Shown: in pieces, positions 9,602-61,569 of the stretch | Position numbering within the stretch: position 1 is the stretch's first letter | How the letters are laid out: every line of letters starts with the position of its first letter | Source of the DNA: Leptotrichia sp. oral taxon 221 | GTDB taxonomy: Bacteria > Fusobacteriota > Fusobacteriia > Fusobacteriales > Leptotrichiaceae | Reading direction: 5' to 3' | Length of the DNA stretch: 64,000 bases | Assembly: GCF_018128245.1 (NCBI RefSeq) | Contig: NZ_CP072378.1 | Location: forward strand, 1,974,191-2,038,190 | Made by a program: the position numbers and the translations under genes | The notes under the pieces: generated by a model | Databases searched by the model: none | Told to the model about the DNA's origin: nothing | The model's input: the letters and a program-made list of their open reading frames with translations, nothing else

Positions 9602-9615
9602 TTATTCCACCGCCT

Positions 9616-10716: not shown

Positions 10717-10762
10717 TTTTTACAACTCCTTCACTCTCATTCCACTATTGAATTTTTCGCTT

Positions 10763-11860: not shown

Positions 11861-11884
11861 TTTTTCTCCTTCCTAAACTCCACT

Positions 11885-13324: not shown

Positions 13325-13434
13325 AATACAAACCTCCTTCTTTTTTATCCAAAATTCACTCAATTTTTCTAAATTTATCTAAACAAATAACACTAAAACA
13401 AATATTGAAAATTTAAGTAAAATAATTTTAATTT

Positions 13435-24141: not shown

Positions 24142-25122
24142 CTAGTATCTTCTATTATTTTCCCATTTCCAAGCTGAGTTAATAATTTCTTCTAATGAAT
24201 ATTCAGGCTCCCATCCTAATTCTTTCTTAGCCTTTTCACTATTAGCAACTAATACTGCTGGATCTCCTGCTCTTTTCTCTACAGTTTCTACTTTAAAGTC
24301 TTTTCCAGTTACTTCTTTTACTTTTTCAATAACTTCCTTAACCGAAAAACCTTCTCCACTTCCAAGATTGTAATTTAAACTTTTATTCTCTTTCAACATT
24401 TTTTCCATACCTAAAATATGTGCTTTTGCTAAATCATAAACATGAACAAAATCTCTTATGCAAGTACCATCTTTTGTTGGATAATCATCTCCAAATATTT
24501 TTATGCTCTCTCTTTTTCCACTAGCCGCCTGTAAAATTAATGGTATTAAATGAGTTTCCGGAATGTGACTTTCTCCAATTATTCCATCTTTATCACTTCC
24601 ACTAGCATTAAAATATCTCAAAACAACACTTTTTAAGCCATATGCCGTATCATAATCTTCAAGTATTTTTTCTACCATTAATTTACTCTTACCATATGGA
24701 TTAATCGGTAATTGTTGGTGAGTTTCGTCTATTTTATCTTTAACAGGTTCTCCAAAAGTTGCTGCTGTAGAACTAAAAATAAAGTTTTTAACTCCTGATT
24801 CAACCATTTGATCTAATAATTTTGTTACTTTAACAACATTATTTTCATAATATTTAGCTGGTTCCTGAACTGATTCCCCAACTTCAATAAATGCTGCAAA
24901 ATGCATAACTGCTGTAATATTTTCTTTTTCAAATACTTCTTTTAGTTTTTTTCTATCTCCCAAATCACCTTTTATAAATTTTACATTTAATATTTCAGCT
25001 ACATCTTTGTAACCTTTTGATAAATTATCATAAATTATTGGATTATATCCACTTTTTTTTAATAGATTTACTGTGTGAGAACCGATGTATCCTGCTCCTC
25101 CGATTACTAGTATATTTTTCAT
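24142..25122 (-). CDS. galE: UDP-glucose 4-epimerase
   Basis: Interconverts UDP-glucose and UDP-galactose; supplies UDP-galactopyranose to the Glf mutase encoded at 35148-36251. At 326 residues it is standard size. Motifs: VIGGAGYIGSHTV, MHFAAFIEVGESV, SSTAATFG, and catalytic YGKSK near residue 145, then RYFNASG. AAGGAAAGG ribosome site upstream. It heads the galE-rfbD pair; a decayed ATPase gene lies upstream and may have inserted into what was once a continuous sugar operon. Confidence 0.96.
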   Translation of the reverse strand: MKNILVIGGAGYIGSHTVNLLKKSGYNPIIYDNLSKGYKDVAEILNVKFIKGDLGDRKKLKEVFEKENITAVMHFAAFIEVGESVQEPAKYYENNVVKVTKLLDQMVESGVKNFIFSSTAATFGEPVKDKIDETHQQLPINPYGKSKLMVEKILEDYDTAYGLKSVVLRYFNASGSDKDGIIGESHIPETHLIPLILQAASGKRESIKIFGDDYPTKDGTCIRDFVHVYDLAKAHILGMEKMLKENKSLNYNLGSGEGFSVKEVIEKVKEVTGKDFKVETVEKRAGDPAVLVANSEKAKKELGWEPEYSLEEIINSAWKWENNRRY

Positions 25123-26088: not shown

Positions 26089-27171
26089 TCATACACTTGT
26101 TTTCAACTCTTTGTTCTTATTTTTATTTAACAATTTATACTTTAAATTTATTATATTTTTTTCAACAAAATAATAGAATAAAAATGATGTTATTAATAAT
26201 AATATAATGTAATACGATATATTTAACCCACTTAAAGGATTTTTAACTTTTAAATAATTCATTAATTCGACAAAACAAGGATGTATAAGATATATTGAAT
26301 AACTTAATTTCCCAAGAAAAGACACTTTTTCTAATGCTTTTGAAATAATTCCATTTTCATAAGCAAAGATAAATACTAAAATTCCTGCAAAAATAGGAAA
26401 AACATACTCATTTTCACCATTGTAATGCTTTGAATTATAAACTCTAATTATAAAATAAATTATTGTTATTTCTAATATTGTAAAAATTTTCCTTTTATTT
26501 TTAAACTCTATATTTTTAAATTTTTGATAAAGAATTGAACATAAAGTTCCAATACTGTAAGAAGCTAAAAGCCTTGAAATAATTATCGGAACATCAAAAT
26601 ATCGAAATATTTTAGCAGCTATAAAATTTGTTGAATAATGTCGTAATATTCCAATAGAAATTATATATGTCATAATAGAAATAAAAATTAATCCTTTATC
26701 AAATTTCTTTTTAAGAAAATAAACAAATGGAAAATAAATAGTTCCTATCCAATATTCTAATCCCAAAGCCCACGCTACTCCAATCATACCTCCAGTAACA
26801 TTTCCATTTAATCCTAAAATTTGTAACAAAAATAAATTTATTATCCATTCATATAAACTTATTTTTATATGTCCCATAAATTTAACAAAAATAATTTGAT
26901 AAATAGTAACTAATATCATATATGGTATTAACAACCTTATTGTTCTTCCAAAAAATAATTTATTAAGATATTCATCTACATTTAATTTTTGATCTTTTAA
27001 ATTTTGTGTTAATACAAAACCACTTAATACAAAAAAAAAGTCTACTGACAGCATAAAAGAACGTGGAATTACATCATGATTACCATTCCAAGTAAATAAA
27101 TGTCCTAATCCAACTAATAAAGCTGCCAAAAATCGGAAGCTTTCTAAAACTTTAAAATTTCTTTTTTTCAT
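26089..27171 (-). CDS. acyltransferase family 3 membrane protein
   Basis: A 360-residue integral membrane acyltransferase (AT3 family, like OafA or NodX), predicted to O-acetylate a surface sugar. Family motifs: LESFRFLAALLVGLGHLF near residue 10 with the key His, SVDFFFVLSGFVLT, and RTIRLLIPY. About ten hydrophobic helices follow. No extra SGNH domain is present. It is the last gene of a run of envelope genes (prs, AT3, GtrA, AT3), and with the second AT3 at 27636 suggests two acylation sites on the polysaccharide. Acceptor is inferred from context only. Confidence 0.85.
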   Translation of the reverse strand: MKKRNFKVLESFRFLAALLVGLGHLFTWNGNHDVIPRSFMLSVDFFFVLSGFVLTQNLKDQKLNVDEYLNKLFFGRTIRLLIPYMILVTIYQIIFVKFMGHIKISLYEWIINLFLLQILGLNGNVTGGMIGVAWALGLEYWIGTIYFPFVYFLKKKFDKGLIFISIMTYIISIGILRHYSTNFIAAKIFRYFDVPIIISRLLASYSIGTLCSILYQKFKNIEFKNKRKIFTILEITIIYFIIRVYNSKHYNGENEYVFPIFAGILVFIFAYENGIISKALEKVSFLGKLSYSIYLIHPCFVELMNYLKVKNPLSGLNISYYIILLLITSFLFYYFVEKNIINLKYKLLNKNKNKELKTSV

Positions 27172-27214: not shown

Positions 27215-27649
27215 TTATGTAAAAATAAAATGTTTTGAAAAAATATAATTTAATACTATAACTATAATATTCGATATTACTTTTACAAGCAATGAGAATA
27301 CTGACCTATTTTGGATTGAAATAAATCTATTTACAAAAAAGTCTATCCCCACTACAACAAAGATTTGATCAATAATCGCTGTTATACCTCTCGCTAATAT
27401 AAATTGAATAAATTCTTTTATAGCTTCTTTACCTTTATTTTCACTTTCAAAAACCCATATTCTATTAGTGAAATATTGAAATAATATACAAATAATATTA
27501 TCTAATACATTACCTAATCCTATTGACATTTTAAATACATTTATAAATAAATAAAATAATATAATATTTAATAATGTAACAGTTATTCCAAAAATAAGAT
27601 ATAACAATATTTCCTTATTTAATATTTTCTTTATATTAACTTTCAACAT
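27215..27649 (-). CDS. GtrA-family small membrane protein
   Basis: A 144-residue protein with four hydrophobic helices and the GtrA family pattern: FGITVTLLNIILFYLF near residue 20 and QYFTNRIWVFES near 60, then a basic loop and two C-terminal helices ending NYIFSKHFIF. GtrA members flip or otherwise handle polyprenyl-phosphate-linked sugars; a mycobacterial member (Rv3789) belongs to the arabinogalactan gene region. The ATG lies inside the end of the upstream AT3 gene (14-bp overlap), with AGAGG in that gene, so translation is coupled. It may act with the polyprenyl-phosphate ribose made by the UbiA protein. Confidence 0.85.
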   Translation of the reverse strand: MLKVNIKKILNKEILLYLIFGITVTLLNIILFYLFINVFKMSIGLGNVLDNIICILFQYFTNRIWVFESENKGKEAIKEFIQFILARGITAIIDQIFVVVGIDFFVNRFISIQNRSVFSLLVKVISNIIVIVLNYIFSKHFIFT

Positions 27650-28634
27650 TTAAATTACCTCTACTAATAATCTTATTAAATTGTTTTTCAACCCAAATAA
27701 AAAGATATCCTATAATTAAGGAAGCTATTATATTAATTATAAATGCAAATATCATTTTTAATTGCCAACTAAACTTTAAAAAAGGTAAAATATAAAATAA
27801 AATAGAAGCTCCTATTCCTTGACTCATATAAAAATATAAACTATTACACCCTACAAAACTCAAAATAGGAATTTTTAAATTTAAAAATGTTGATTTATGA
27901 AAAAAATGTAATATTAAAAATAATGATATCATTGAAGCTACTACATAAGGAATACCTACTGGGAATTTATAATCCTGTAAAACAATTTTTTTAGATAAAT
28001 AGATAGATAGATAAATCAATATAGATACTAGAGATAGAACTATATACAGATATTTATATTTTTTCATTGCTCCCAAATAACCTATCAAAATACAAGAAAT
28101 AAAAAATAAAATTGAATAATTAAAATTATAAAAATTAATTTCTATTTTTGTAAAATATGTAAATAAATAATAGAAAAAAATTAAAATAATAACTGTAAAT
28201 AACTTTTTAGGTGAATATTGTTTTATTAACATATAAGATACTAATAATGCTATTACATAAACAGGAACAAACCAATAACTTCCACTAACAACTGGAAATT
28301 TATCCAATACAGCATTATAAAAAAATAGTGCTGAAAAGAGATTATTTACATTAATATCCATAAATAAAATTTGATAAGCTAAAACTAATATAAAAAAACT
28401 AAAAATTAATTTTGTTACTTGTTTTATAGGGTTTATATTCTTTACCACAGACATTAACATTCCTGTCAATAAAAAAAATATCGGAACATCTATTAATAAA
28501 GATAAATTTCTCATATATTCTGGAACATATGAACTTCCACTCCAAAAAACCGTGTGTATAAATACTACAGAAATTGTTGCTAAACCTCTTATATTATCAA
28601 TATAATAATTTCTATTCTTTTTTTTATTTCCCAT
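27636..28634 (-). CDS. acyltransferase family 3 membrane protein (second copy)
   Basis: A 332-residue AT3-family membrane protein distinct from the one at 26089. Motifs: IDNIRGLATISVVFIHTVFW near residue 12 with the conserved Arg and His, and LLIDVPIFFLLTGML. About ten membrane helices; the C-terminus is basic and overlaps the GtrA gene start. Probably modifies the same surface glycan with acetyl or another acyl group. AAAGGA ribosome site. It begins 33 bp after the canonical prs gene. Confidence 0.83.
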   Translation of the reverse strand: MGNKKKNRNYYIDNIRGLATISVVFIHTVFWSGSSYVPEYMRNLSLLIDVPIFFLLTGMLMSVVKNINPIKQVTKLIFSFFILVLAYQILFMDINVNNLFSALFFYNAVLDKFPVVSGSYWFVPVYVIALLVSYMLIKQYSPKKLFTVIILIFFYYLFTYFTKIEINFYNFNYSILFFISCILIGYLGAMKKYKYLYIVLSLVSILIYLSIYLSKKIVLQDYKFPVGIPYVVASMISLFLILHFFHKSTFLNLKIPILSFVGCNSLYFYMSQGIGASILFYILPFLKFSWQLKMIFAFIINIIASLIIGYLFIWVEKQFNKIISRGNLNVES

Positions 28635-28667
28635 TTTTTATTTCCTTTCATCCCATTTATAATTATT

Positions 28668-29654
28668 TTATTCTATACTTTCTACTGGAATTTCAAATAA
28701 ATCACTTATTGCTTCACTTGTTGTTATTCTCTTAATCGTTTCAGCAAACATTTTACTCGTTGTTAAAACTCTCAATTTATCAAATTGTTGATCTTCTGAC
28801 AATTCAATTGTATCTGTTATTACAACTTCTGTAAATGCTGAATTTTTTAATCTTTCAATTGCTGGACCTGAAAATACTGCGTGAGTCGCACATCCATAAA
28901 CTTCTGTCGCACCTTTGTCTATCAATGCTTGAGCTGCGTTACAAATTGTTCCAGCTGTGTCGATCATATCATCTATCAAAATTGCTTTCTTACCTTTTAC
29001 ATCTCCAATTATGTTCATAACTTCTGACACATTCGCTTTTGCCCTTCTTTTATCAATTATTGCAAGTGGTGTATGCAACCAATTTGCCAATCCTCTAGCT
29101 CTTTTTACTCCTCCAACATCAGGTGATACTACAACTGTATCTTCTGGACTGAATCCGTATTTTATGAAGTGTTTTGCTAAAATTGGCAATGCTTCCATAT
29201 GATCTACTGGAATATCGAAGAATCCTTGAATTTGTCTTGCGTGTAAATCCATTGTTATTACTCTTGTCGCTCCTGCTACTGTCAATAAGTTTGCCACTAA
29301 TTTTGATGTAATTGGCTCTCTGGGACTTGCTTTTCTATCTTGCCTTGCATATCCATAATAAGGAATTACTGCTGTTATTTCTCTTGCTGAAGCTCTTCTC
29401 AACGCATCAATAAATATCAATAATTCCATTAAACTTTCATTTACTGGTTTTGAAGTTGATTGAATAATAAATACTTTACAACCTCTAACACTTTCATTCG
29501 ATTTTACAAAAGTTTCTCCGTCTGCAAATTTTACTATCTGATTTGAAGATAAATCTATTTCAAGGTACTCTGCTATTTTTTTTGCTAATTCTTTACTCGA
29601 TGACCCCGCAAAAATTCTTATTTTTTCTTTATCTTCTTTACTCAAAGCTACCAT
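28668..29654 (-). CDS. prs: ribose-phosphate pyrophosphokinase (canonical copy)
   Basis: Makes PRPP from ribose-5-phosphate and ATP. The 328-residue protein keeps all active-site motifs: GYARQDRK, MDLHARQIQGFFDIPVDH, SPDVGGVKRARGLA and the PRPP loop IDDMIDTAGT. It overlaps the HAD phosphatase gene by 7 bp and follows the UbiA gene, so PRPP synthesis is physically coupled to the enzyme predicted to use PRPP for polyprenyl-phosphoribose formation. It may also be the housekeeping enzyme; the other copy at 16593 has altered key residues. Confidence 0.95.
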   Translation of the reverse strand: MVALSKEDKEKIRIFAGSSSKELAKKIAEYLEIDLSSNQIVKFADGETFVKSNESVRGCKVFIIQSTSKPVNESLMELLIFIDALRRASAREITAVIPYYGYARQDRKASPREPITSKLVANLLTVAGATRVITMDLHARQIQGFFDIPVDHMEALPILAKHFIKYGFSPEDTVVVSPDVGGVKRARGLANWLHTPLAIIDKRRAKANVSEVMNIIGDVKGKKAILIDDMIDTAGTICNAAQALIDKGATEVYGCATHAVFSGPAIERLKNSAFTEVVITDTIELSEDQQFDKLRVLTTSKMFAETIKRITTSEAISDLFEIPVESIE

Positions 29655-30226
29655 TTTATTTGTTCCTTTCCATCAGTCCATTTTTCTATTTTTTCTCCTT
29701 TTACAATCCAAGCATTTTTAGAAATCAAAAACATTGGCGTATCAGAATAATGATCTGAATAAAAATTTTCTATTTCTCCATTTGGAAATTTTTTTTTAAA
29801 TCTTTTTACTTTTTCTTTACCATAACAATTTAAACTATTAAATCTCCCAGTTTCTTTATTAACTTTAGTTGCAATTAAATTAATTCCTAACTTATTAATT
29901 ATTGGACTCAATAACCATTCAGGAGAAGCAGAGATAACTACATCTTCTTTATTTTTCTGATTTAAATACCACTGTTTGATTTTTTTTTCATTTCTTAACC
30001 AAAATTCTTCTATTTCTTTATCAATATTTTTTATTCCTTTTAAAAAAGAAAAAAATTTTTCTTTATACTTTTCTTTTGTTACTTTTTTTAAATGATATAA
30101 AATCATATAAAAAACTTGCTTAGGAAAGTATCTTATTAATGTGAAATCCTTTTTTATCGAAAATAAATAAAAATCTATCGTGCTATCTCCATCATAAATA
30201 GTCTTATCAAAATCATATACATTCAT
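29648..30226 (-). CDS. HAD-superfamily phosphatase, probably acting on polyprenyl-phosphoryl phosphoribose
   Basis: A 192-residue HAD-IB-type phosphatase. Motif I is YDFDKTIYDGDST at the N-terminus (nucleophile Asp in DFDKT), motif II is ISASPEWL, motif III the lysine in YGKEKV, and motif IV SDHYSDTP. Three bases separate its ATG side from the upstream UbiA gene stop. In several bacteria an HAD-IB protein accompanies or is fused to the phosphoribosyl-polyprenol synthase, and removal of the 5-phosphate is the next step after that enzyme. Substrate assignment is therefore contextual; enzyme class is secure. Confidence 0.8.
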   Translation of the reverse strand: MNVYDFDKTIYDGDSTIDFYLFSIKKDFTLIRYFPKQVFYMILYHLKKVTKEKYKEKFFSFLKGIKNIDKEIEEFWLRNEKKIKQWYLNQKNKEDVVISASPEWLLSPIINKLGINLIATKVNKETGRFNSLNCYGKEKVKRFKKKFPNGEIENFYSDHYSDTPMFLISKNAWIVKGEKIEKWTDGKEQIKW

Positions 30227-30229
30227 CGT

Positions 30230-31123
30230 TTATCCTCCTATAAATAAACTTCTATAAAAAAGTATTATTGTTGATAATATATATAATATAACTAAACCTA
30301 TCAATATTTTATCAGACATTAAAACCTCTACTGGATCTCCATCACTTTCTCCTAATTCAATAGCATAACTGTATCTTAAAAAAATAACAATAACTAAGGG
30401 AACTGTCCAAACAAAAATATCACTTCCAACTATTTCTGTTGTTCTCGGATCAACAGTCCACAAAGAATAAAAAACCAATGTTAATGCCATAAAAATATTC
30501 ATATTTTTATCTAAAAATTCATAAGAATATTTTTTTAGGACTTCTCTTGTATTTTTATCACTCTTTATTTCTAATTCTCCACGTCTTTTACCAAATCCCA
30601 TATAAAATGAGAACGTTATCACAATTAAATATAACCAATAAGAAATTGGAACATTTACAATTGCACCACCATATAAAACTCTCAAAAGAAATCCTGAAGA
30701 TAATAATACTAAATCTAAGACTGGCTTATTTTTCAATCCTAAACTATATAATAAATTTATCAAATAATACATAACTAGATATAACGTTGATATTGTAAGT
30801 AATTTATGATCATTTCCATAATAATGAAAACAAAAAGATACCACAAATAAAAATATTGAAAAAACTATCGCATTTCTTTTTGAAATTTGACCAGAAGCTA
30901 TTGGTCTTTTACACTTTTTAGGATGCTGTCTATCTTTTTCAGCATCCATAGTATCATTTATTATATAAATTGTCGAAGAAAGAAAAGAAAATGCTAAAAT
31001 TGCCAAAAATACCGACAATAATTTATTAAAATCTGTAATTCCTTTTGAAAAAAATAACGGTACCAAAATTAATCCATTTTTCAAATAATGTTTCGGACGC
31101 ATTAATTTTATATAATTTTTCAT
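30230..31123 (-). CDS. UbiA-family 5-phosphoribosyl-1-diphosphate:polyprenyl-phosphate phosphoribosyltransferase
   Basis: A 297-residue UbiA-fold membrane enzyme. Rather than a menaquinone or haem UbiA, it has the DPPR-synthase signature: RPKHYLKN at the N-terminus, IINDTMDAEKDRQHPKKCKRPIASG (Asp-rich metal site followed by RPIASG) read in pieces near residues 55-80, and a second DPRTTEIVG. Those match Rv3806c-type proteins that attach phosphoribose from PRPP to polyprenyl phosphate. I chose the ATG at 31123, overlapping the GT-C stop by 4 bp, with GAAGGAG upstream. A gene for PRPP synthetase and one for an HAD phosphatase follow at once. Confidence 0.85.
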   Translation of the reverse strand: MKNYIKLMRPKHYLKNGLILVPLFFSKGITDFNKLLSVFLAILAFSFLSSTIYIINDTMDAEKDRQHPKKCKRPIASGQISKRNAIVFSIFLFVVSFCFHYYGNDHKLLTISTLYLVMYYLINLLYSLGLKNKPVLDLVLLSSGFLLRVLYGGAIVNVPISYWLYLIVITFSFYMGFGKRRGELEIKSDKNTREVLKKYSYEFLDKNMNIFMALTLVFYSLWTVDPRTTEIVGSDIFVWTVPLVIVIFLRYSYAIELGESDGDPVEVLMSDKILIGLVILYILSTIILFYRSLFIGG

Positions 31124-33315
31124 TCTATATTTTCTCCTTCTACTAACAATAAATTCTTTCCTTTTCTTAATCCTATTAAAATAATTATAATTCCAAGAGG
31201 TATCAACCATAAAGTATATTTCCAACTGGCTGGAAAATATTTTATTTCTAATGTTGCTTTATCTAATCCTTTTGGAACATTATCAAGCTTTATCAATCCC
31301 TTTTCGTTTGAAACGTTAATCTTTTTACCATTTATATAAGCTCTGTAACCTCTCCAATAAACTTTACTCATTATGATGTATCCATTTTGGGTTGATGAAA
31401 TCAAATATTTTTCTTTATTAGCTTTATCTTCTAATAAATTATTTGCTTTTATTCCTTCTGATAAATAAGAAATATTTCCTACTGTATTTGATTTATCTTT
31501 AACAAAATATATTGCATTGGGATTTTGTACATTTCTAGTTGAATATCCACAACCTTGAATTTTATTTTTCATATCATCATTCAATTGATCCTTAAATATT
31601 GCTATTGAACCAATATTTAATAAATCAAAATAACAAACATTACTATATTTATTTGATAATGCATTTACTGTTGATTCTTGATTAAAAATATGGTGTGCTG
31701 ATTCTGGATATCCTAATAACTCCATAATTTTCTTATTTCCAACAGGAGAGTATCCATTTATAGTTTTCATGTTAAAATATAGAAATTGACCGTAATGTAA
31801 ATCTTCCAAATTTTCCACAGGAGTCTTCCCATTCGTCAAAGATAATAAATACCCATTTTTTTGAAAACTATTTTCCAAATTAATATTAGGAGTTACTCCA
31901 TCTAGTGGCAAAATTCCATTTGTAGATTCTTGAATAAATAATATTAAAAACAACATGAATATTGTATACACTATAGAAGAAACTAATTTAAATTTACCTT
32001 CTTTCCAAACAGTATAAATATAAAATATAGTTAAGATAAGAAATACTAAATTAACTTGAAACATTTTAGCAAAATGTTCCTCGACTACAAAAAAAGACAA
32101 AAAAGCAGACACACATAAAGTCCCAATAAATATTTTAAATCTATATTTAGTAATTTTTAAATCATTTATACTTAAACTATACATCGAAAATATTATCAAT
32201 ATTTCACTGAAATAAGGTAAAAATCTAAACTGCCAACGAAGCGGTCCTAATTGAGTTGGAAGTTGAGAAGACATGAAAAATAATAGAATTAATATTCCTA
32301 AAAATTTTACATTTTCCCCTTTAAATATTTTTTTTATATCTTTAATAAAACAAATTAAAATCAATATATATATTGATGAGTATGCAATAGGAATTTTTAT
32401 TATCGAATAGCCACCAAATTTATTTATAAATGTATAGTAATTTGGGATAAATGTCATTAAAATAGAATTAAAACTAGGAGTTAAAAAATTACCATAATTC
32501 CCAAATCCATTAGGACGATCAATCAATTTTGAAGAAATAACATATTCTGAATAAATATTAATTCCTATCAAAAATATTCCCAAATGTATAAATAATAATA
32601 TCATTATTTTTTTATATTCTCTTTTAAAAAATAATTCTATTAAGTATACCGTTATTACAAAACCATATGATATTACTGAATGTGGCCATCCAGAAGCTAA
32701 TATACATAATACAGATATTACATTAAGAACCAAATACTTTATTTCAAATTTTTTTCTTAACAAAAAAATACTTGCTAATGCAGCAACAAACCAAACTTGA
32801 CCGGCTGCGCTATTCCACCAAGAAGCTAAATAAAAGTATAAAAAAATAGGATTTATACAAAATAAAAAAGCTACTACTACTTTATTTTTTATATTTAAAG
32901 CTTCTGATATTTTCTGTGCAAAAAATGCCATTAATACAAAATTAACAAATGCTACTAGTCTCGATATAGTTAAGAATGATTCTATTTTAACTGACAAAAT
33001 AGATAAAATAATATTTTGTGGCAAAAAAATCCCTCTATCTATATCAATCATCATATTTTGACCAATAAATGTATTTTTTATTATCAAAGGTATTTCCTTA
33101 TTTAACCACATTCGTCCCACCGCACGATAATACGGTAAATAGGAATTCTGTGCATCATCATAAAAAAAGAAACTTTTATCTGATAACGTACACACGAGAA
33201 CTATAAATAACGCTATTATTAATGAGTATAATAAATTTATTCCATTTCGTTTCCAAAAACTTTGTTTTGAAAAATTTTCTTGTTTAACTTTCATCATAAT
33301 AGTTTCATTAGTCAT
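31120..33315 (-). CDS. large polytopic membrane protein, YfhO/GT-C glycosyltransferase-like
   Basis: A 731-residue membrane protein with about 12-14 hydrophobic helices and a soluble C-terminal domain (residues ~480-690) ending in one more helix. The first loop contains FFYDDAQNSYLPYYRAVGR, resembling the acidic extracytoplasmic loop of GT-C glycosyltransferases, and the C-terminal MSKVYWRGYRAYINGKKI resembles the YfhO family. I used the ATG at 33315 (GGGGGA four bases upstream); it overlaps the galactofuranosyltransferase gene by 8 bp. It is a candidate to use the polyprenyl-phosphate pentose made by the next gene's product. Acceptor and donor are inferences. Confidence 0.7.
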   Translation of the reverse strand: MTNETIMMKVKQENFSKQSFWKRNGINLLYSLIIALFIVLVCTLSDKSFFFYDDAQNSYLPYYRAVGRMWLNKEIPLIIKNTFIGQNMMIDIDRGIFLPQNIILSILSVKIESFLTISRLVAFVNFVLMAFFAQKISEALNIKNKVVVAFLFCINPIFLYFYLASWWNSAAGQVWFVAALASIFLLRKKFEIKYLVLNVISVLCILASGWPHSVISYGFVITVYLIELFFKREYKKIMILLFIHLGIFLIGINIYSEYVISSKLIDRPNGFGNYGNFLTPSFNSILMTFIPNYYTFINKFGGYSIIKIPIAYSSIYILILICFIKDIKKIFKGENVKFLGILILLFFMSSQLPTQLGPLRWQFRFLPYFSEILIIFSMYSLSINDLKITKYRFKIFIGTLCVSAFLSFFVVEEHFAKMFQVNLVFLILTIFYIYTVWKEGKFKLVSSIVYTIFMLFLILFIQESTNGILPLDGVTPNINLENSFQKNGYLLSLTNGKTPVENLEDLHYGQFLYFNMKTINGYSPVGNKKIMELLGYPESAHHIFNQESTVNALSNKYSNVCYFDLLNIGSIAIFKDQLNDDMKNKIQGCGYSTRNVQNPNAIYFVKDKSNTVGNISYLSEGIKANNLLEDKANKEKYLISSTQNGYIIMSKVYWRGYRAYINGKKINVSNEKGLIKLDNVPKGLDKATLEIKYFPASWKYTLWLIPLGIIIILIGLRKGKNLLLVEGENIE

Positions 33316-35104
33316 TATTGTCCCCCGTTCTATTAAATTGTTTTTTCCAAAATTCTTCACTTGTAAATTCATTGTATGTTGCTCTGTAATCTTTTCTTAA
33401 TTTTCTATATTTAAGAGTTAATATTGTAATTGCCTTTAAATATCTAAATACACATTTAAAGAAAGTTCTCTTACTATGAGCCACTACATATCCTTTTTTA
33501 GTAGGTTGATGAATATAAAGTACTTTAGGATATCTATAAACTTCTTTCAATATACCACCAAATGATTTATTTTGTGCAACTATTCCTTTCTTAAAGAAAA
33601 TTTTAGGTAAAAGATGCCCATTCAATGTTATTCTTATTAAGAAATTTTTTAGTTTATCTTTAGGACCATTTGTCCCTTCTTCTCCTGTTACACTTGGATA
33701 CTGTTTAGCTTGTGATATGACTTCAAAAGGAACATCTATTACTTTCTCTTTATTGACTAAACTTAAAATTTCTGGTCTTCTTTTCATCATATCTACATTA
33801 TTTCTCCAGAAACTACTTCCTTTATTAACATCTTCTATTGCACAAACTGAAGCCAATGCTGTTTCATACTGATAAGTTAATAATTGTCTTAAAAGCATTC
33901 TAGCTGTTATTTTTAATGTAGGTATTAATCCATTATTAGGAACTAATCCATGAAAGTATTGCATAATATGATTTCTTGTATCTAAATAAAATGGTAATGG
34001 ACCATTTTTTAATGCAAAATCTTCTTGCCAAGAAGAAATACCGTTCATTGTAATTATTTTAAATTTATGAACTAATCCAAATCCTATATCATCTCCTCTT
34101 ACAAAGTATGGAAATGCATAATGTTTTACTTTATTTATAGGAAATGCAAAAAACCACCATCCAGCATAATCTATCGGTACTTCTTGTTCATTAATAAGTA
34201 AATCAACAACATGCCTCAAATCAAGTCCCAATTTGTTTGGTCTACAAATACCATCAAATCTAGCTCCATTTTCAAATTGTCTAAATGGCTCAATTTCCCT
34301 CAACATTGCTCCACCTATACATAGTTCTGGATCTTTAGCATATTCTAAAACATTAATTGTTCTTTTTAATCCTTCTACTTCACACGAAGCATCATCATCC
34401 ATAAATAAGCAATGAGTGAATTCACCTCTTTCTTTTAATTCCATTAATCCTCGAGTAAATCCACCAGATCCTCCTAAATTTTCATTTGGAACTATTGTTA
34501 TTCCTTCAGTTTGTGGTAAATTTTTACTATTATCTACTACGAAAATTGATACTTTATTTATAAAATCCTTATCTGTTAATAATTCTCTTTTTAATCTTGC
34601 CATTGCTGGAAGAACATATTGTTGTCTATTAAAATGTGTTATAGAAATTCCTAATGATATCTTATTTTTTATTTCCGTATTTGTAAAATATGAAAAATCA
34701 TATATTTCACTTTCATCAGATGCCTCTATAACAAATGCTAACATTCCATCTTCTAAGTCATCCCAAAAATCCAATGCTATATTTTTTTCTTCTATACTTT
34801 TACTTTCTAAATAATCTTCTTTTAAAATTTTCATACCATAATGTAATCGATGTAATATCCATGAGATTTTTATTTTCCCTTTATATTTTATATTAAAATT
34901 CAGATCTTCTATACAAGTATATTTTTTCCACTTCCCTATACTAACACTATTAAAATACGTGTCTGTGTGAACTTTTCCATTTTTTTCTAAATATATAATT
35001 GAATCACTCATGTTTATGATTGCAAAATTATTTAACCTAAAATATAAATCTTTTTCTGTACACATTCCTATTTTAGGAAATACACTTCTTTGTAACTTAT
35101 TCAT
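33308..35104 (-). CDS. GlfT2-like galactofuranosyltransferase (GT2)
   Basis: A 598-residue cytoplasmic-face glycosyltransferase resembling the mycobacterial galactofuran polymerase GlfT2. It has an N-terminal beta-rich domain (about 1-150), then a GT-A domain: ENLGGSGGFTRG, the metal motif FMDDDASCE, AGWWFFAFPI, FVRGDDIGFGL and a downstream WQEDF where GlfT2 has the catalytic Trp-His-Glu type segment, then a helical C-terminal part. The start at 35104 has GAAGGAG upstream. It lies directly after glf, which makes its donor UDP-galactofuranose. Polymerase versus single-sugar transferase cannot be told. Confidence 0.87.
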   Translation of the reverse strand: MNKLQRSVFPKIGMCTEKDLYFRLNNFAIINMSDSIIYLEKNGKVHTDTYFNSVSIGKWKKYTCIEDLNFNIKYKGKIKISWILHRLHYGMKILKEDYLESKSIEEKNIALDFWDDLEDGMLAFVIEASDESEIYDFSYFTNTEIKNKISLGISITHFNRQQYVLPAMARLKRELLTDKDFINKVSIFVVDNSKNLPQTEGITIVPNENLGGSGGFTRGLMELKERGEFTHCLFMDDDASCEVEGLKRTINVLEYAKDPELCIGGAMLREIEPFRQFENGARFDGICRPNKLGLDLRHVVDLLINEQEVPIDYAGWWFFAFPINKVKHYAFPYFVRGDDIGFGLVHKFKIITMNGISSWQEDFALKNGPLPFYLDTRNHIMQYFHGLVPNNGLIPTLKITARMLLRQLLTYQYETALASVCAIEDVNKGSSFWRNNVDMMKRRPEILSLVNKEKVIDVPFEVISQAKQYPSVTGEEGTNGPKDKLKNFLIRITLNGHLLPKIFFKKGIVAQNKSFGGILKEVYRYPKVLYIHQPTKKGYVVAHSKRTFFKCVFRYLKAITILTLKYRKLRKDYRATYNEFTSEEFWKKQFNRTGDNND

Positions 35105-35147
35105 AAAATTTTCTCCTTCAATTAATCGCATTAACTTTTATTTATTT

Positions 35148-36251
35148 TTATTTATTAAATTCTTCTTCCACCACTTCCAAAGCAACTTCAAACACATGGT
35201 GCATATCATAATATTTATAATTAGCTAATCTTCCACCAAATATTACATTTTTTTCTTGTTTTGCTAATTCTTGATATTTTTTAAATATTTCAGCATTTTT
35301 ATCGTTATTTACTGGGTAATAAGGTTCATCTCCTTGTTTCCATTCTGCTGGATATTCTCTAGTTATAACCGTTTTTGGTTGTTTTCCAAATTCAAAGTGC
35401 TTGTGTTCTATTATTCTTGTATAAGGTACTTCTCTTTCGTTATAATTTACTACTGCATTCCCTTGGTGATTTTCTTCATCTAATGTTTCGTGTTCAAATC
35501 TTAAACTTCTATATTCTAAAACACCAAATTTATAATCAAAATATTGATCTATCATACCTGTAAACACTACTTTATCAGCTTTAGACAATAATTCTTCTTT
35601 TTTTTCAAAGAAATCAACATTCAATTCTACATCAATTCCTTCTAACAACTTATCAAAGATTACATTATAACCACCTTCAGGAATTCCTTGATACTTATCA
35701 TTAAAATAATTATTATCATAAGTATATCTTACTGGTAATCTTTTAATAATAAATGCTGGTAATTCTGTTGTACTTCTTCCCCATTGTTTTTCAGTATAAC
35801 CTTTTATCAATTTTTCATAAATATCTTTTCCTACCAAAGAAATTGCTTGTTCTTCTAAGTTTTTAGGTTCTGTAATTCCAGATTCTTTTATTTGCTCATC
35901 AATTTTAGCTTTAGCTTCTGATGGAGTCACAACTCCCCATAATTTATTAAAAGTATTCATATTAAATGGTAAATTGTATATTTCACCTTTATAATTTGCT
36001 ATTGGTGAATTTATATAATTATTAAATGTACAAAATTGATTTACATAATCCCACACTTTTTTGTTACTTGTATGAAAAATATGTGCTCCATATTTGTGAA
36101 CATTTATTCCTTCAATATTTTCACAATACATATTTCCACCAACATGATCTCTTTTGTCAATCACTAAAACTTTTTTCCCTCTCTTATTTGCTTCATAAGC
36201 AAAAGTTGCTCCAAAAGGCCCTGCTCCTACTACTAAATAATCATATCTCAT
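35148..36251 (-). CDS. glf: UDP-galactopyranose mutase
   Basis: A flavoprotein that converts UDP-galactopyranose to UDP-galactofuranose. At 367 residues it is of normal size. It starts MRYDYLVVGAGPFGATFAYEA (FAD-binding), then HVGGNMYCE, INVHKYGAHIFHTSNKKVW, GYTEKQWGR, YTRIIEHKHFEF and near the end GGRLANYKYYDMHHV, all classic Glf motifs. Together with galE upstream in metabolism and the GlfT2-like enzyme downstream, it makes a galactofuranose-containing polymer near certain. A small hairpin lies just upstream in the wzt-glf gap. Confidence 0.97.
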   Translation of the reverse strand: MRYDYLVVGAGPFGATFAYEANKRGKKVLVIDKRDHVGGNMYCENIEGINVHKYGAHIFHTSNKKVWDYVNQFCTFNNYINSPIANYKGEIYNLPFNMNTFNKLWGVVTPSEAKAKIDEQIKESGITEPKNLEEQAISLVGKDIYEKLIKGYTEKQWGRSTTELPAFIIKRLPVRYTYDNNYFNDKYQGIPEGGYNVIFDKLLEGIDVELNVDFFEKKEELLSKADKVVFTGMIDQYFDYKFGVLEYRSLRFEHETLDEENHQGNAVVNYNEREVPYTRIIEHKHFEFGKQPKTVITREYPAEWKQGDEPYYPVNNDKNAEIFKKYQELAKQEKNVIFGGRLANYKYYDMHHVFEVALEVVEEEFNK

Positions 36252-36266
36252 CTCTACTTAAATTTC

Positions 36267-36281
36267 GTAGTTGAAAACTAC
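36267..36281. other. small hairpin in the wzt-glf intergenic gap
   Basis: GTAGTT / AACTAC with a three-base loop, about 16 bp upstream of the glf ATG. Could influence message stability or translation of glf; no T run, so not a terminator. Confidence 0.3.
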
Positions 36282-36329
36282 CACTACTACTTTTTCTCCT
36301 TTCTTAATTTTTATTTTATTATTTTTTAT

Positions 36330-37058
36330 CTAACTATTTTTATATGCCTCACAAACCTTCTCTGTATCTCCAACCATCTTTAATTTCCCTTTTTCTAGCC
36401 AAACAACTCTATCGCATAATTCCTCTACTTGTTCAATCGAATGTGATACAAACAATATACTCGTACCTTTGGACATCATTTCCTTTATTTTTTGTTCACA
36501 CTTTTCTTGAAAGTGAAAATCTCCTACTGCAAGAATTTCATCAGCTATTAATATATCTGGTCTAACTACTGTTGCTATTGCGAATCCTAACCTTGCATAC
36601 ATTCCTGAAGAAAAATTCTTTAATGGCGTATCCAAAAATTCTCCTAATTCTGAAAATTCCACTATTTCATCAAATTTTTCTTCCATGAATTTTTTATCAT
36701 ATCCTAACACAGCACCATTTAAGAATATATTTTCTCTTGCTGTTAATTCTGGATCAAATCCTGCTCCTAATTCTATTAAAGGTGCCACTTTCCCTGTGAC
36801 TTCTACACTTCCTATAGTTGGTTCCAGTACTCCCGCTACTACTTTCAATATCGTACTTTTCCCAGAACCATTAAAACCAACTATTCCTAATATTTCTCCC
36901 TTTTTTAAAGAAAAAGAAACATCTCTTAACGCCCAAAATTCTTTAAAAAATAGCTGCCGTTTTATTAATTTTATTATGTATTCTTTAAAAGAGTGAATTA
37001 TTTCTGAACTCATGTTAAACCTCATAGAAACGTTCTTCACTTTTACTATTTCTTCCAC
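36330..37058 (-). CDS. polysaccharide ABC exporter ATPase (Wzt/RfbE type)
   Basis: ATP-hydrolysing subunit of a polysaccharide or teichoic-acid-type exporter. Walker A is VGFNGSGKST, signature motif FSSGMYARLGFAIA, Walker B DILIADEILAVGD, all typical for the Wzt/TagH/RfbE subgroup. At 242 residues it has no C-terminal carbohydrate-recognition extension, so export would not depend on a specific end-capping sugar as with O8/O9a Wzt. GTG start with AGGAGG six bases upstream. It follows the permease gene by 10 bp; mycobacterial galactan export uses a similar pair (Rv3781/Rv3783). Confidence 0.93.
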   Translation of the reverse strand: MEEIVKVKNVSMRFNMSSEIIHSFKEYIIKLIKRQLFFKEFWALRDVSFSLKKGEILGIVGFNGSGKSTILKVVAGVLEPTIGSVEVTGKVAPLIELGAGFDPELTARENIFLNGAVLGYDKKFMEEKFDEIVEFSELGEFLDTPLKNFSSGMYARLGFAIATVVRPDILIADEILAVGDFHFQEKCEQKIKEMMSKGTSILFVSHSIEQVEELCDRVVWLEKGKLKMVGDTEKVCEAYKNS

Positions 37059-37068
37059 TATATTCCTC

Positions 37069-37833
37069 CTATATATGAAGTATAAATTTCTTTTTATTCA
37101 TATTAAACGTCACTACTCCAATAAAAAGTGCGATGATAATAATAAATATACAATTTAGATGCTCATCTAATGTCGGCATTTTCCCATAATATACCATATC
37201 TCTAAATAAATCAACAAAATAAACCATTGGATTTAAATCTATTAAAAACATATATTCTTTCGGAACTATTTCTTTTGGATAAAATAATGGCGTTAAATAA
37301 CTTATAGCTGTTAAGAGAACTCCGTATAAATGAAACATATCTCTAAAATAGACAGCTACAGATGCTAATAATAGCCCTACTCCAAGGCAAAAGAAAAGAA
37401 CATATATCACTGGTATTATTGAAAATAATACTGAGGTTTTTATAGGTGCTTTTGTTATAATTATTACTAAAATCAGTCCTGGTAATGATAATACAAAATT
37501 GACACAACTTGACAATACTTTAGCTATTGGGAAAATGTGTTTAGGAACATATACTTTTTTTATTAAAGAGGCATTTTCCAATATTGATCCCATTGCAGTA
37601 CCAGTTGCTTCTGAATAAAAATTGAATATCAACTGACCTGTCAATAAATATACAGGGAAATTTGCAATTGCAAATTTAAAGAAACTCGAAAACACCATCG
37701 CCATAATTAGCATTGTCAAAAAAGGATTTAACATACTCCATAGTATTCCTAGTACAGATCTCCTATATTTTTTCTTTATATCTCTTTTTACTAGCTCTAT
37801 TAAAAGTGCTCTATATTCAAATATTTCCTTCAT
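37069..37833 (-). CDS. polysaccharide ABC exporter permease (Wzm/RfbD type)
   Basis: Membrane subunit of the exporter, 254 residues with six hydrophobic helices of the ABC2 type. Family motifs: the N-terminal amphipathic ELVKRDIKKKYRRSVLGILW, NPFLTMLIMAMVFSSFFK, and ITPLFYPKEIVP-like YLTPLFYPKEIVP, with DLNPMVYFVDLFRD near the C-terminus. The ATG lies inside the DUF4422 gene end (17-bp overlap), so translation is coupled. It should move an undecaprenyl-linked glycan made by the neighbouring transferases across the inner membrane. Confidence 0.93.
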   Translation of the reverse strand: MKEIFEYRALLIELVKRDIKKKYRRSVLGILWSMLNPFLTMLIMAMVFSSFFKFAIANFPVYLLTGQLIFNFYSEATGTAMGSILENASLIKKVYVPKHIFPIAKVLSSCVNFVLSLPGLILVIIITKAPIKTSVLFSIIPVIYVLFFCLGVGLLLASVAVYFRDMFHLYGVLLTAISYLTPLFYPKEIVPKEYMFLIDLNPMVYFVDLFRDMVYYGKMPTLDEHLNCIFIIIIALFIGVVTFNMNKKKFILHI

Positions 37834-38677
37834 TTTTCTCCTTTCTATCTAAATAAAGTATAACTCCTTCTTTTACATTTATATTTTTTTTATCTTTCAA
37901 ATATTCTATAAATGGTAACATCATTCTTTCAGATAAAAACCCAAAAACTCTCATTTGATAAGGATCTGAAGGAATTTTTATCTTCTTCTCTAATTTAAAT
38001 AATACATCAAAAATAAATTCAGAATACTCAAAAAAATATTCTTTTTTCATAATAAATACATTTAAAGGATATATTTTATTCCCCTTTTTTATTCTTTTTT
38101 TATAATATGGATATATCTCTTCATGATCTTCTTTTATTATTTCCAACAATTTATCTAAATGCTCTACTATATGAGCCTTTTTATACTGTAAATACACACT
38201 TTTATTAAAAATCTCTTTTTTTGGTAAAATCACATCATATTTTTGCATTTCACTCGTAATATTTTTAGACAGCCTCTTTATTTTTTGCTCCATTAATTTT
38301 TCATCACTAATCTTTATTTGAAATAATTCTCTCATATCAAGCAAATTTATTATTGGTTTTAAATAAAAAAGTCTTGAAAAAATATACAATATCCTCTTTA
38401 ATCTGTATTCTAATTTATTTTCAAGAGAAATATATCGTCTATAGTGCATCATTCCATAAAAATTAGCATCTATATTTTTCCACATCCAATAAATACCTGT
38501 CAATTCACAAAAATTCTTATTTTCCCCTGAAATATTATCTCCCGAAGAATCTTTTAGATACTCCAAATTTTCTTTACTTTCTTTTGAACCAACATGAATT
38601 GGAACAATAACATCATCTTTGTAGCTAAAAAATTTTTTATGAAAAGCTACTCCTATAAATCCTTTTTTCTTTAGCAT
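37817..38677 (-). CDS. DUF4422 protein, probable glycosyltransferase
   Basis: A 286-residue cytoplasmic protein of the DUF4422 family found in capsule and exopolysaccharide clusters. Features: IGVAFHKKFF at the N-terminus, VPIHVGSKES, GDNISGENKNFCELTGIYWMWKN read in two pieces at about 45-70, and YGMMHYRRYI near 80, a highly conserved family segment. It begins 3 bp after the preceding GT2 gene stop. DUF4422 proteins are believed to be sugar transferases (a mannosyl- or galactosyltransferase role has been proposed for some); the specific linkage here is unknown. Confidence 0.82.
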   Translation of the reverse strand: MLKKKGFIGVAFHKKFFSYKDDVIVPIHVGSKESKENLEYLKDSSGDNISGENKNFCELTGIYWMWKNIDANFYGMMHYRRYISLENKLEYRLKRILYIFSRLFYLKPIINLLDMRELFQIKISDEKLMEQKIKRLSKNITSEMQKYDVILPKKEIFNKSVYLQYKKAHIVEHLDKLLEIIKEDHEEIYPYYKKRIKKGNKIYPLNVFIMKKEYFFEYSEFIFDVLFKLEKKIKIPSDPYQMRVFGFLSERMMLPFIEYLKDKKNINVKEGVILYLDRKEKNEGNI

Positions 38678-38680
38678 ATT

Positions 38681-39580
38681 TTATCCTTTTATTAATAACA
38701 CTAATCTTTTTAGTAATTTCATTTGAAAATACTTACTTAACCAAAATCTTTCCAATCTATTTTTGTTTCTATCTGTTACTTCCAAATATTTTTCAATATC
38801 ATTCAAATCTCTTTTTCTTAAACATTTTATATATTTTTCTTTTATTTCTTCAATCAATTTTCTATCTTCAACATAAAAATACTTTTTACTCATTATATTT
38901 TTTATTATACTTCTATTCGCTCCTATTTCATTTCTTTCATGTTGTCTATATTTTACCAAACTTTCATCTATAAAAACTCTTGTTCCTAAAAATTGCGAAA
39001 GCAAATGAAAATAACGATCATGCAAAGTGACATTTTTTAAAAACGGAAGACTTTCTTTTATCATTTTTTTATTTACCATAGAAGTTGATCCTTGTACGAT
39101 ATATTCAAAAAAATATATATTTGAATTAGTTTTTTTTGCTATTTTTGAATCAATAAATTCTTCTTTTATTATTTCTAACTTATCATCACAAACTAAAGAA
39201 TTACAATGTATCAACAATGGTTTTGATAATACTTTTTCATCCAGATCCCTTATTTTTTCAACAAATTTCTCTAATTTATTTTTTAGCCAAAAATCATCTT
39301 GATCTGAAAATAAAACAAACTCTTCCTTTGCATTAAAAAGTAATTCTTCAAAATTTTTTAAAAACCCTAAATTCCCTTTATCATCTCTCAAAATCTTTAT
39401 TCGCTCATCTTTTTTTTCATATTTATTCAAAATTGTTACTGTTTCATCTTTTGATCCATCATCTCTTATTATTAATTCCCAATTTTTATATGTTTGATTA
39501 ATAATTGAATCTAATTGTTCGCTTATATATTTTTCTCCATTATAAGAAGCTAAAAGTATACATAACTTAGGATTTTCCAA
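38681..39580 (-). CDS. GT2 glycosyltransferase, rhamnosyltransferase-like
   Basis: A 299-residue GT-A enzyme. It begins LCILLASYNGEKYISEQLDS and continues IIRDDGSKDET, with FLFSDQDDFW-like LFSDQDDFWLKNKL near residue 95 (metal-binding DQDD) and HDRYFHLLSQ near 200. These are hallmarks of the RfbG/WbbL-type GT2 subgroup of dTDP-rhamnose users. Start codon is TTG with AGGAGG eight bases upstream. It lies immediately after rfbA, so a rhamnose donor is reasonable. The short hydrophobic C-terminus is not a clear membrane anchor. Confidence 0.85.
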   Translation of the reverse strand: MENPKLCILLASYNGEKYISEQLDSIINQTYKNWELIIRDDGSKDETVTILNKYEKKDERIKILRDDKGNLGFLKNFEELLFNAKEEFVLFSDQDDFWLKNKLEKFVEKIRDLDEKVLSKPLLIHCNSLVCDDKLEIIKEEFIDSKIAKKTNSNIYFFEYIVQGSTSMVNKKMIKESLPFLKNVTLHDRYFHLLSQFLGTRVFIDESLVKYRQHERNEIGANRSIIKNIMSKKYFYVEDRKLIEEIKEKYIKCLRKRDLNDIEKYLEVTDRNKNRLERFWLSKYFQMKLLKRLVLLIKG

Positions 39581-39599
39581 AATTAAAACCTCCTAGATA

Positions 39600-40463
39600 T
39601 TATTTTAACAAATCCATCAAATATTTTCCATAATCTGTTTTAAGCATAGTATCTGCTATTTGTCTTAATTGAATTTCATTTATCCATTTCTTTCTATAAG
39701 CTATTTCTTCTATACATGCAATATAATAACCTTGTCTATTCTGTACAGTCTCTACATAATTAGCCGCTTGTAACAAAGATTCATGAGTTCCTGTATCAAG
39801 CCAGGTTATTCCTCTTCCAAGTTGTTTTACATTCAACTTACCTTCTTTTAAGTATTCCTCATTTATTGTAGTAATTTCTAACTCTCCTCTTGCTGAAGGT
39901 TTTATTGATTTAGATTTTTTAACTACAGTATTATCATAGAAATACAATCCTGGTATTGCATAATTTGATTTAGGATTTTCTGGCTTTTCTTCTAATGAAA
40001 TTGCTTTTCCATTCTTATCAAATTCTACTACTCCATATGCTCTTGGATCTTTTACAGGATATCCGAATACAACTGCTCCTTCTTTTAATTTTGCAGTCTC
40101 TTCTAATAATCCAGAAAAACCTGCTCCATAAAACACATTGTCTCCTAAAATTAAGCAAACATTGTCATCTCCTATAAATTCTTCACCAAGTATAAAGGCT
40201 TCTGCTAATCCATTTGGATATTTCTGTACCTTGTATTTCAACTTTATTCCCAATTGACTTCCATCACCTAACAATTCTTCAAACACTGGCAAATCTCTAG
40301 GAGTTGAAATAAGTAATATTTCTCTTATATTTGCTAACATCAATACCGATAAAGGATAATAAATCATAGGCTTATCATATATCGGCATAATTTGTTTTGA
40401 AATAGCTTTTGTTAAAGGATACAGCCTTGTTCCGCTTCCTCCTGCTAAAATAATTCCCTTCAT
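39600..40463 (-). CDS. rfbA: glucose-1-phosphate thymidylyltransferase
   Basis: First step of dTDP-L-rhamnose synthesis: makes dTDP-glucose. The 287-residue protein starts [18 protein letters not shown], followed by [47 protein letters not shown] and [18 protein letters not shown], all standard for RmlA of the long-known tetrameric type. Good AGAGGAG before the ATG. It is the promoter-proximal gene of the whole polysaccharide region; the other rml genes lie 15-26 kb downstream on the same strand. Confidence 0.97.
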
Positions 40464-61272: not shown

Positions 61273-61329
61273 TTTTTCCTCTTTTTATAGTTAAAATTTT
61301 TTTTCTTTCAACAATATTTTTAAAACTGC

Positions 61330-61569
61330 CTATTTTTGCACCTTAACCGTGATTTTTTCACCATTAAATTCAACAATATCTCCCTCATGGATTTTTTTTC
61401 CACGTCTCAATTCAACTTCTCCGTTAACCTTCACATCTCCATTCAATATAAACATTTTTGCTTCCGAACCACTTCCTGTCAAATTTGTCCACTTCAACAA
61501 TTGATCCAATTTTATAAAATCTGTTTTAATCTCCACTATTTCTACGTTTTCAGCTATTTTTTTATCCAT
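61330..61569 (-). CDS. yaaA: S4-domain RNA-binding protein (YaaA/RlbA type)
   Basis: A 79-residue protein carrying a single S4 domain: FIKLDQLLKWTNLTGSGSEA, KMFILNGDVKVNGEVELRRGKKI and VEFNGEKITV. Small S4 proteins of this type sit between dnaN or dnaA and recF in many Firmicutes (B. subtilis YaaA). The ATG at 61569 has GGAG six bases before it. It is the first gene after the downstream DnaA-box field. dnaN is not in this window. Confidence 0.88.
   Translation of the reverse strand: MDKKIAENVEIVEIKTDFIKLDQLLKWTNLTGSGSEAKMFILNGDVKVNGEVELRRGKKIHEGDIVEFNGEKITVKVQK

Follow-up and report, generated by a model that had tools for sequence, protein, structure and literature searches.

Gene content of the glycan region

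We analyzed a stretch of 64,000 nucleotides from Leptotrichia sp. oral taxon 221 (referred to as the window; source genome 2.08 Mb in two contigs, with a low G+C content of 29.2%), in which genes for a galactofuran-type polymer and its export are joined to genes predicted to make, flip and transfer a lipid-linked pentofuranose. These genes occupy positions 40463-26089 on the minus strand (the gene run; coordinates are window positions). A sequence-only reading had already drawn attention to this region; the genes which it named lie where it had placed them, closely packed in one minus-strand run, which beyond those parts also encodes a DUF4422 transferase and two acyltransferases. Among the rhamnose genes it had listed, rmlA is located within 27215-40463, while rmlC (13625), rmlB (14357) and rmlD (23255) lie outside. 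The genes are as follows (aa, amino acids):

39600..40463, minus strand: rmlA, glucose-1-phosphate thymidylyltransferase for dTDP-rhamnose (TIGR01207, 479.7 bits, above cut-off)
38681..39580, minus strand: GT2 glycosyltransferase, possible linker (rhamnosyl?) transferase (PF00535, 7.7e-28)
37817..38677, minus strand: DUF4422/GT111 UDP-galactofuranose (Galf) transferase, probable primer enzyme (PF14393, 2.2e-63; PDB WbbM 6u4b, 2.3e-24)
37069..37833, minus strand: Wzm, ABC exporter permease (PF01061, 5.2e-19)
36330..37058, minus strand: Wzt, ABC ATPase, 242 aa (PF00005, 1.1e-22)
35148..36251, minus strand: glf, UDP-galactopyranose mutase (TIGR00031, 432.7 bits, above cut-off)
33308..35104, minus strand: GlfT2-like GT2 galactofuranosyltransferase, probable galactan synthase (PDB 4fix, 2.6e-17)
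31120..33315, minus strand: GT-C-like membrane protein, 731 aa, predicted periplasmic pentofuranosyltransferase (hydropathy topology, distant relatives)
30230..31123, minus strand: UbiA-family polyprenyl-phosphate phosphoribosyltransferase, PPPRS (NF008977, 219.5 bits; PDB 8j8j)
29648..30226, minus strand: HAD-IB phosphatase, predicted phosphoribose 5-phosphatase (PF12710, 2.1e-17; TIGR01488 above cut-off)
28668..29654, minus strand: prs, phosphoribosyl pyrophosphate (PRPP) synthetase, recently duplicated from the housekeeping gene (NF002320, 486.3 bits, above cut-off)
27636..28634, minus strand: acyltransferase 3 family protein, possible glycan O-acylation (PF01757, 1.6e-16)
27215..27649, minus strand: GtrA-family protein, predicted flippase of a lipid-linked pentose (PF04138, 1.1e-18)
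26089..27171, minus strand: acyltransferase 3 family protein (PF01757, 1.1e-23)
24142..25122, minus strand: galE, UDP-glucose 4-epimerase, feeding glf (TIGR01179, 455.7 bits, above cut-off)
23255..24112, minus strand: rmlD (TIGR01214, 269.8 bits, above cut-off)
14357..15565, minus strand: rmlB (TIGR01181, 440.8 bits, above cut-off)
13625..14236, minus strand: rmlC (PF00908, 4.6e-75)

The intergenic gaps from the GlfT2-like gene through the PRPP synthetase gene measure -8, -4, +3 and -7 bases, so that the gene run looks like a translationally coupled unit and is predicted to form a single operon. A scan for promoters and terminators was no richer than shuffled sequences (149 versus a mean of 137.0, standard deviation 11.7, and 1 versus 2.6, respectively).

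In the galactofuran part, the GlfT2-like protein matches PDB entry 4fix and retains the DDD, GWW and DD motifs, which agrees with its earlier assignment; the Pfam domain Glft2_N is reached only below cut-off (24.8 versus 26.1 bits). The exporter likewise corresponds to its earlier description as one without a carbohydrate-binding tail: Wzt consists of an ABC domain, and a Pfam scan found no Wzt_C domain in it, in contrast to the Wzt of G080, a genome from another genus of the same family (G073, G079 and G080 denote genomes among 98 of the same phylum). The best NCBIfam match of Wzm is the galactan exporter model NF050109 at 82.6 bits, far below its cut-off of 380; for Wzt, the galactan exporter model (211.1 bits) and the teichoic-acid one (212.7 bits) score almost equally, each below its cut-off. 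Among 72,556 plasmid records, 27 also contain a GlfT2-like gene. We examined one such plasmid from Leisingera, in which glf and ABC genes lie nearby, and one from Acetobacter, in which neither was found within 10 kb.

The UbiA protein and its phosphatase

In 2024, work on Citrobacter O antigens established a three-component pathway for pentofuranose, which was proposed to be widespread (PMC11127046), so that the view of the sequence-only reading, to which a phosphoribose branch was unfamiliar in Gram-negative bacteria, is outdated. The gene run encodes, by sequence, both a UbiA phosphoribosyltransferase with an Asp-rich motif and a HAD phosphatase with intact motifs, as expected for such a system.

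The UbiA protein had been proposed to be of the DPPR-synthase type rather than a quinone or haem prenyltransferase. In line with this, DPPR synthase ranks first in the sequence searches: the top NCBIfam model is NF008977 (219.5 bits, just below the cut-off of 234), and the scores with the DPPR synthase models, three in all, range from 158 to 219 bits. In the PDB, the Mycobacterium tuberculosis DPPR synthase 8j8j is matched with an E-value of 1.4e-35, followed by the next best prenyltransferase at 1.1e-5; a profile of 50 relatives widens this to 1.4e-77 versus 3.9e-15 for the best other prenyltransferase. Moreover, residues N56, D57, D60 and D64 are conserved in 85 or 86 of 86 aligned proteins and correspond to the Asp-rich motif of Citrobacter ORF15, which was shown to be important (PMC11127046). 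The weak scores with cyoE (42.1 bits), ubiA (40.2), GGGP-synthase (44) and an unspecified prenyltransferase model (70.4) could be taken to mean that the protein is a prenyltransferase of the quinone, haem or archaeal-lipid type with no part in the glycan, but the far higher DPPR synthase scores, the PDB ranking and the paired phosphatase and PRPP synthetase make this scarcely credible. Judged by its relatives, the protein belongs with the phosphoribosyltransferases rather than with the quinone enzymes.

We compared related UbiA proteins in a tree of 86, comprising the 80 top-ranked among at least 568 relatives together with the window, G080 and four loci from the plasmid collection (relatives collected via one N-terminal peptide pattern; quick IQ-TREE run with SH-aLRT support and without bootstrap). 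It leaves out L001 and L002 as repeats and L004, which has no UbiA; for L061 the longer of two UbiA open reading frames (ORFs) was used, and L079, whose range ended in a stop codon, was left out of alignment A4. The window UbiA falls in a set of 32 proteins (SH-aLRT 98), of which 27 are labeled as Bacillota in their records. The same HAD type (E<1e-20) lies within 5 kb in 21 of these 32 loci and DprE1 in none, as far as the available flanks reach, some of which are short; this holds for all neighbor counts of DprE1, HAD, GtrA and prs given here for the 86 loci. In the remaining 54 loci the window HAD type is absent (0/54), weaker HAD matches are found in 11 and DprE1 in 13. The HAD motif residues are conserved in 20 of 21 aligned proteins, and the phosphatase has no match in the PDB.

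UbiA and HAD are also paired in an exopolysaccharide (EPS) locus of Lactococcus cremoris plasmid pF27D (L005, 12596-15715), where genes for a membrane protein, DPPR-synthase-type UbiA, HAD and GtrA are consecutive, and relatives of the pF27D membrane protein sit in the UbiA loci L015, L020 and L029. A metagenome-assembled genome labeled as Filifactor alocis (L018, 66-9675) shows in succession an exporter pair (Wzm and Wzt), three large genes, and then GtrA, UbiA and HAD, with the contig ending soon after. An unannotated 6.6-kb record named 'Bacteriophage sp.' (L107) encodes a UbiA protein with 33.5% identity.

The expected pentose

Neither DprE1 nor WecA, both features of the arabinogalactan pathway, was found in the source genome. 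The DprE1 domain PF04030 (ALO) has no match there or across 33 genomes of the family, G080 included; the same model matched 3 of 14 control genomes, 2 of them above cut-off. MurB is the only protein of the genome with FAD_binding_4, and MraY the only one with PF00953, which indicates that there is no WecA. The three short-chain dehydrogenases/reductases (SDRs) of the region score above cut-off as galE, rmlB and rmlD. The unmatched DprE1 and the HAD-linked UbiA set make polyprenyl-phosphate-ribofuranose the expected product, as in Citrobacter youngae O1. We therefore infer ribose as the pentose, an epimerase known for the conversion not having been found in the genome.

A different sugar would be transferred if an unrecognized epimerase turned the lipid-linked ribose into arabinofuranose (Araf) or xylofuranose (Xylf). 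Versions with both sugars exist, made via DprE1/E2 or via one SDR (PMC11127046), and the region does encode SDR enzymes. These are, however, recognized above cut-off as galE, rmlB and rmlD in an SDR search confined to the region, ALO is unmatched in this and the 33 family genomes, and the sole FAD_binding_4 protein is MurB. Moreover, galE is 97% identical in G073, a genome without this UbiA. We regard such a conversion as improbable.

The sequence-only reading had compared the gene set with mycobacterial arabinogalactan. What stands is a polymer of galactofuran type whose predicted pentofuranose branch would derive from polyprenyl-phospho-ribose; in the strict sense the name is not supported. 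A true peptidoglycan-bound arabinogalactan of the mycobacterial type would be suggested by the joint presence of GlfT2-like, glf and DPPR-synthase-type UbiA genes, as in Rhodococcus pmega_4. In mycobacteria the arabinogalactan linker is initiated by WecA. Here, no WecA is present, DprE1 is unmatched, the phosphatase is a HAD and not a PAP2 protein, a GT111 enzyme is encoded and the genome has LpxC, which together render this origin very improbable. A galactofuran with a predicted ribofuranose branch, attached by a three-component periplasmic system, is the better label.

A PRPP synthetase gene within the cassette

Three prs genes are present in the source genome. Over 987 bp, the DNA of the copy in the gene run is 97.7% identical to that of the one linked to glmU; of the differences across 326 codons, 21 are synonymous and 4 non-synonymous, which is indicative of a recent copy that is under constraint or of gene conversion. 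In G080, UbiA-HAD-prs belongs to another glycan locus of the ABC type, which has a PF02397 transferase, a Wzt with Wzt_C, and GtrA. Its cassette prs is 96% identical to the window copy at the protein level and its other prs 85%, which suggests a transfer of the cassette between genera together with its prs. Capture of this gene may reflect a limiting supply of PRPP for the route.

Among the 86 UbiA loci, prs lies within 3 kb of UbiA in three: the window, G080 and L075. We rejected L075 as a third dedicated copy, as its neighbors look housekeeping (ispE, spoVG and rplY, assigned by eye). The third PRPP synthetase of the source genome, at window positions 16593-17561, is divergent (64% to the gene-run copy) and adjoins a GH16 protein; divergent copies at 64-67% also occur in G066, G073, G075 and G077.

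The predicted membrane transferase and the GtrA protein

Hydropathy, on which all transmembrane (TM) topologies given here are based, predicts about 11 TM segments for the GT-C-like protein, with a soluble stretch of 231 aa before the last one. Its earlier GT-C-like label fits this topology and its distant relatives; Pfam and PDB searches gave no match. G073 encodes a relative with 54% identity. The Rhodococcus ruber pmega_1 protein aligns at 22% identity over 633 columns (hhalign 98.5%, E 3.8e-15) and is followed by a GtrA gene, which is the best evidence for the membrane protein as the transferase of a GtrA-type system. D53 and D54, following the first TM segment, are conserved in 3 of 3 relatives aligned, and neither family nor solved-structure matches were obtained.

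Kinship with the membrane proteins of G080 and of the Lactococcus plasmid was rejected (best BLASTP E 0.36 and 0.25; hhalign 0.7% and 1.1%), and assignment as YfhO is too weak, since the hhalign match to the YfhO of G079 spans 76 C-terminal residues at 24.7% probability. A viral scan with the GT-C pair yielded 143 pattern matches and no relatives.

The small multi-TM flippase of a three-component system is predicted to be GtrA, whose nearest relative found (71% identity) serves a GT2-type module in G079, a locus without UbiA. The GT-C-like protein and GtrA are thus both shared with loci that lack UbiA, and neither part is specific for pentose.

Exchange of modules behind a common core

Conservation analysis of the 98 genomes revealed GlfT2-like genes in three (window, G073 and G079), the GT-C-like gene in two (window and G073) and this type of UbiA in two (window and G080). 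The neighborhood search proposed by the sequence-only reading therefore recovers the galactofuran core in G073 and G079, both without this UbiA. The core has the same order in all three, and each locus ends with galE and rmlD. Identities to the window in G073 and G079 are 89 and 93% for Wzm, 93 and 95% for Wzt, 97 and 98% for glf, and 66 and 61% for the GlfT2-like protein; galE is likewise near-identical in G073. A supposed break of the G073 GlfT2-like gene by one TAA was rejected, as this TAA is the end stop of an open 607-aa ORF.

Behind the core, the loci differ. The window has GT-C - UbiA - HAD - prs - acyltransferase - GtrA - acyltransferase; G073 has GT-C (54%) - GtrA (31%) - a GT2 of 239 aa and more genes; and G079 has YfhO (PF09586, 536 bits) - a GT2 of 242 aa - an oxidoreductase - more genes - a GT2 of 302 aa - GtrA. 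The 239- and 242-aa GT2 proteins have no TM segments, and their weak, sub-cut-off best matches include polyprenyl-phosphate-sugar synthases; the 302-aa protein has two C-terminal TM segments in a GtrB-like layout. The UbiA cassette thus occupies the place of the GT2 genes in G073 and G079.

We tentatively propose, at somewhat less than even confidence, that donor cassettes are exchanged behind one core. In some strains, GT2 enzymes would supply the shared GT-C-like protein and GtrA with lipid-linked sugars; in another, after capture of UbiA-HAD-prs, the two would use lipid-linked ribofuranose, giving a galactofuranose-ribofuranose polymer convergent with arabinogalactan. The window versus G073 (related GT-C) and versus G079 (related GtrA), with different donor genes in each case, offer natural comparisons for donor choice.

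Proposed mechanism

We favor, with moderate confidence, an ABC-exported galactofuran O antigen or similar surface glycan that receives ribofuranose (Ribf) side groups after export. In the cytoplasm, the GT2 enzyme would extend a lipid-linked primer, perhaps with rhamnose, the DUF4422/GT111 enzyme would add the first Galf, and the GlfT2-like synthase would build poly-Galf from UDP-Galf supplied via GalE and Glf. The finished chain would be exported by Wzm/Wzt. In parallel, the PRPP synthetase of the gene run would supply PRPP, from which UbiA would transfer ribose-5-phosphate to polyprenyl phosphate; HAD would strip the 5-phosphate to give polyprenyl-phosphate-ribofuranose, and the sugar would stay ribose because no known epimerase is present. 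GtrA would flip this donor, and in the periplasm the GT-C-like protein would transfer Ribf to the chain that has been exported but not yet ligated to lipid A-core. The linkage would be alpha if the GT-C-like enzyme is inverting, as in Citrobacter. Attachment to lipopolysaccharide (LPS) is plausible in this genome, which encodes LpxC and a WaaL-like ligase gene adjoining a heptosyltransferase gene.

Several observations weigh against this assignment. The residue aligned with His396, a metal ligand of GlfT2, is Gln in all three galactofuran loci (window, G073 and G079); elsewhere it is Gly (Acetobacter), Gln (Leisingera) or His (Saccharopolyspora). No initiating transferase was found in the gene run, and the loci of G073, G079 and G080 start with a PF02397 enzyme. 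Among the 32 closely related UbiA loci, 11 have no such HAD within 5 kb, and a crude TM count within 6 kb, which is blind to GT-C versus flippase versus polymerase and affected by several contigs that end early, finds a large membrane protein at 24 and a small one at 9 of the 32. The predicted transferase is without Pfam or PDB match. Its relative in G073 and the GtrA relative in G079 belong to genomes without this UbiA, and GtrA could be a leftover of an earlier module. An unrelated epimerase elsewhere in the genome would change the sugar, and other glycans could be the acceptor.

Such a different acceptor, be it a second glycan, lipid A-core or a protein, has candidates. The sole PF02397 enzyme of the genome sits in another locus: L099 and L102 (source genome 1.46-1.48 Mb) hold this transferase, accompanied by a GT2, as well as a Wzy_C protein, and probably form a second glycan locus. 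A UbiA route in Pseudomonas has been proposed to serve pilin (PMC11127046). Set against this, the GT-C, UbiA, HAD and prs genes are interlocked with one another and with the galactofuran synthase gene, and G073 and G079 hold a branching-type module at the equivalent site behind the shared core, which makes decoration of another acceptor unlikely, if a little less so than a different sugar.

If decoration of the galactofuran with ribofuranose is confirmed, the 2024 pentofuranose pathway would reach the Fusobacteriota and a galactofuran backbone, GtrA would be a candidate flippase of polyprenyl-phosphate-pentose, and the membrane transferase would stand outside the named families.

Other genes in the window

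A short AAA_21 gene lies within the glycan region (25217-25729); its relation to the AAA gene at the equivalent site of G079 is undetectable (E 5.1). Two tandem AAA-ATPase_like/PDDEXK_9 proteins (19781-23145) are flanked by a nucleotidyltransferase gene and rmlD. Positions 7322-13363 encode, consecutively, a DUF5682 protein, a MoxR-type AAA protein, a protein matching no Pfam family and a SWIM-domain protein. At 59145-63547, dnaA, RecF/SMC-type and DciA-type genes indicate that the window probably ends close to the replication origin.

Comparison with known systems

In the literature searched, which was accessible in part and excluded most subscription journals, no account of such a system was found for Leptotrichia or Fusobacterium, nor were GtrA as a pentose flippase, the GT-C-like protein, a captured prs, the galactofuran core or donor-cassette exchange.

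Rhodococcus ruber pmega_4 (glf - glycosyltransferase - PAP2 - DPPR synthase) shares adjacent glf, GlfT2-related and DPPR synthase family genes. In contrast, the window has HAD in place of PAP2 and a GT111 enzyme, DprE1 is unmatched, and WecA is absent and LpxC present.

In Kingella kingae, a Galf homopolymer on LPS was demonstrated for pamABC (PMC12269835). The combination of DUF4422/GT111, UDP-galactopyranose mutase and GlfT2-like GT2 genes is found in one run here as well, as judged by family and not by comparison with the Pam sequences. The Kingella account, in its accessible part, mentions neither pentofuranose branching genes nor Wzm, whereas the window run has Wzm/Wzt and a branching module.

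YfhO/GtrA systems, including the GtrA protein CflA that serves several C55-phosphate-sugars, have been reviewed (PMC8035078). The CsbB-GtcA-YfhO system resembles the one predicted here in that a GtrA flippase is joined by a large glycosyltransferase in the membrane, whose substrate is a polymer after its export; in the window, UbiA, HAD and prs replace the GT2 polyprenyl-phosphate-sugar synthase.

The closest parallel is Citrobacter youngae O1/O2, with the parts ORF15 (PPPRS-PRP), ORF14 (flippase) and ORF12 (GT136) (PMC11127046). Common to both, by prediction for the window, are a UbiA phosphoribosyltransferase with HAD, a small flippase and an ABC-exported backbone, next to a GT-C or, in the window, GT-C-like protein and, with C. 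youngae O1, the lack of a known epimerase, which in O1 leads to ribofuranose. In contrast to Citrobacter, the window HAD is encoded separately, the predicted flippase belongs to the GtrA family and not to the ORF14 family, the membrane protein has a trailing TM segment after its soluble domain, differs in this from ORF12 as described and matches no known family, a prs copy is added, and the backbone is predicted to be galactofuran. Thus, the class of mechanism has already been published, and the combination of parts in Leptotrichia looks new.

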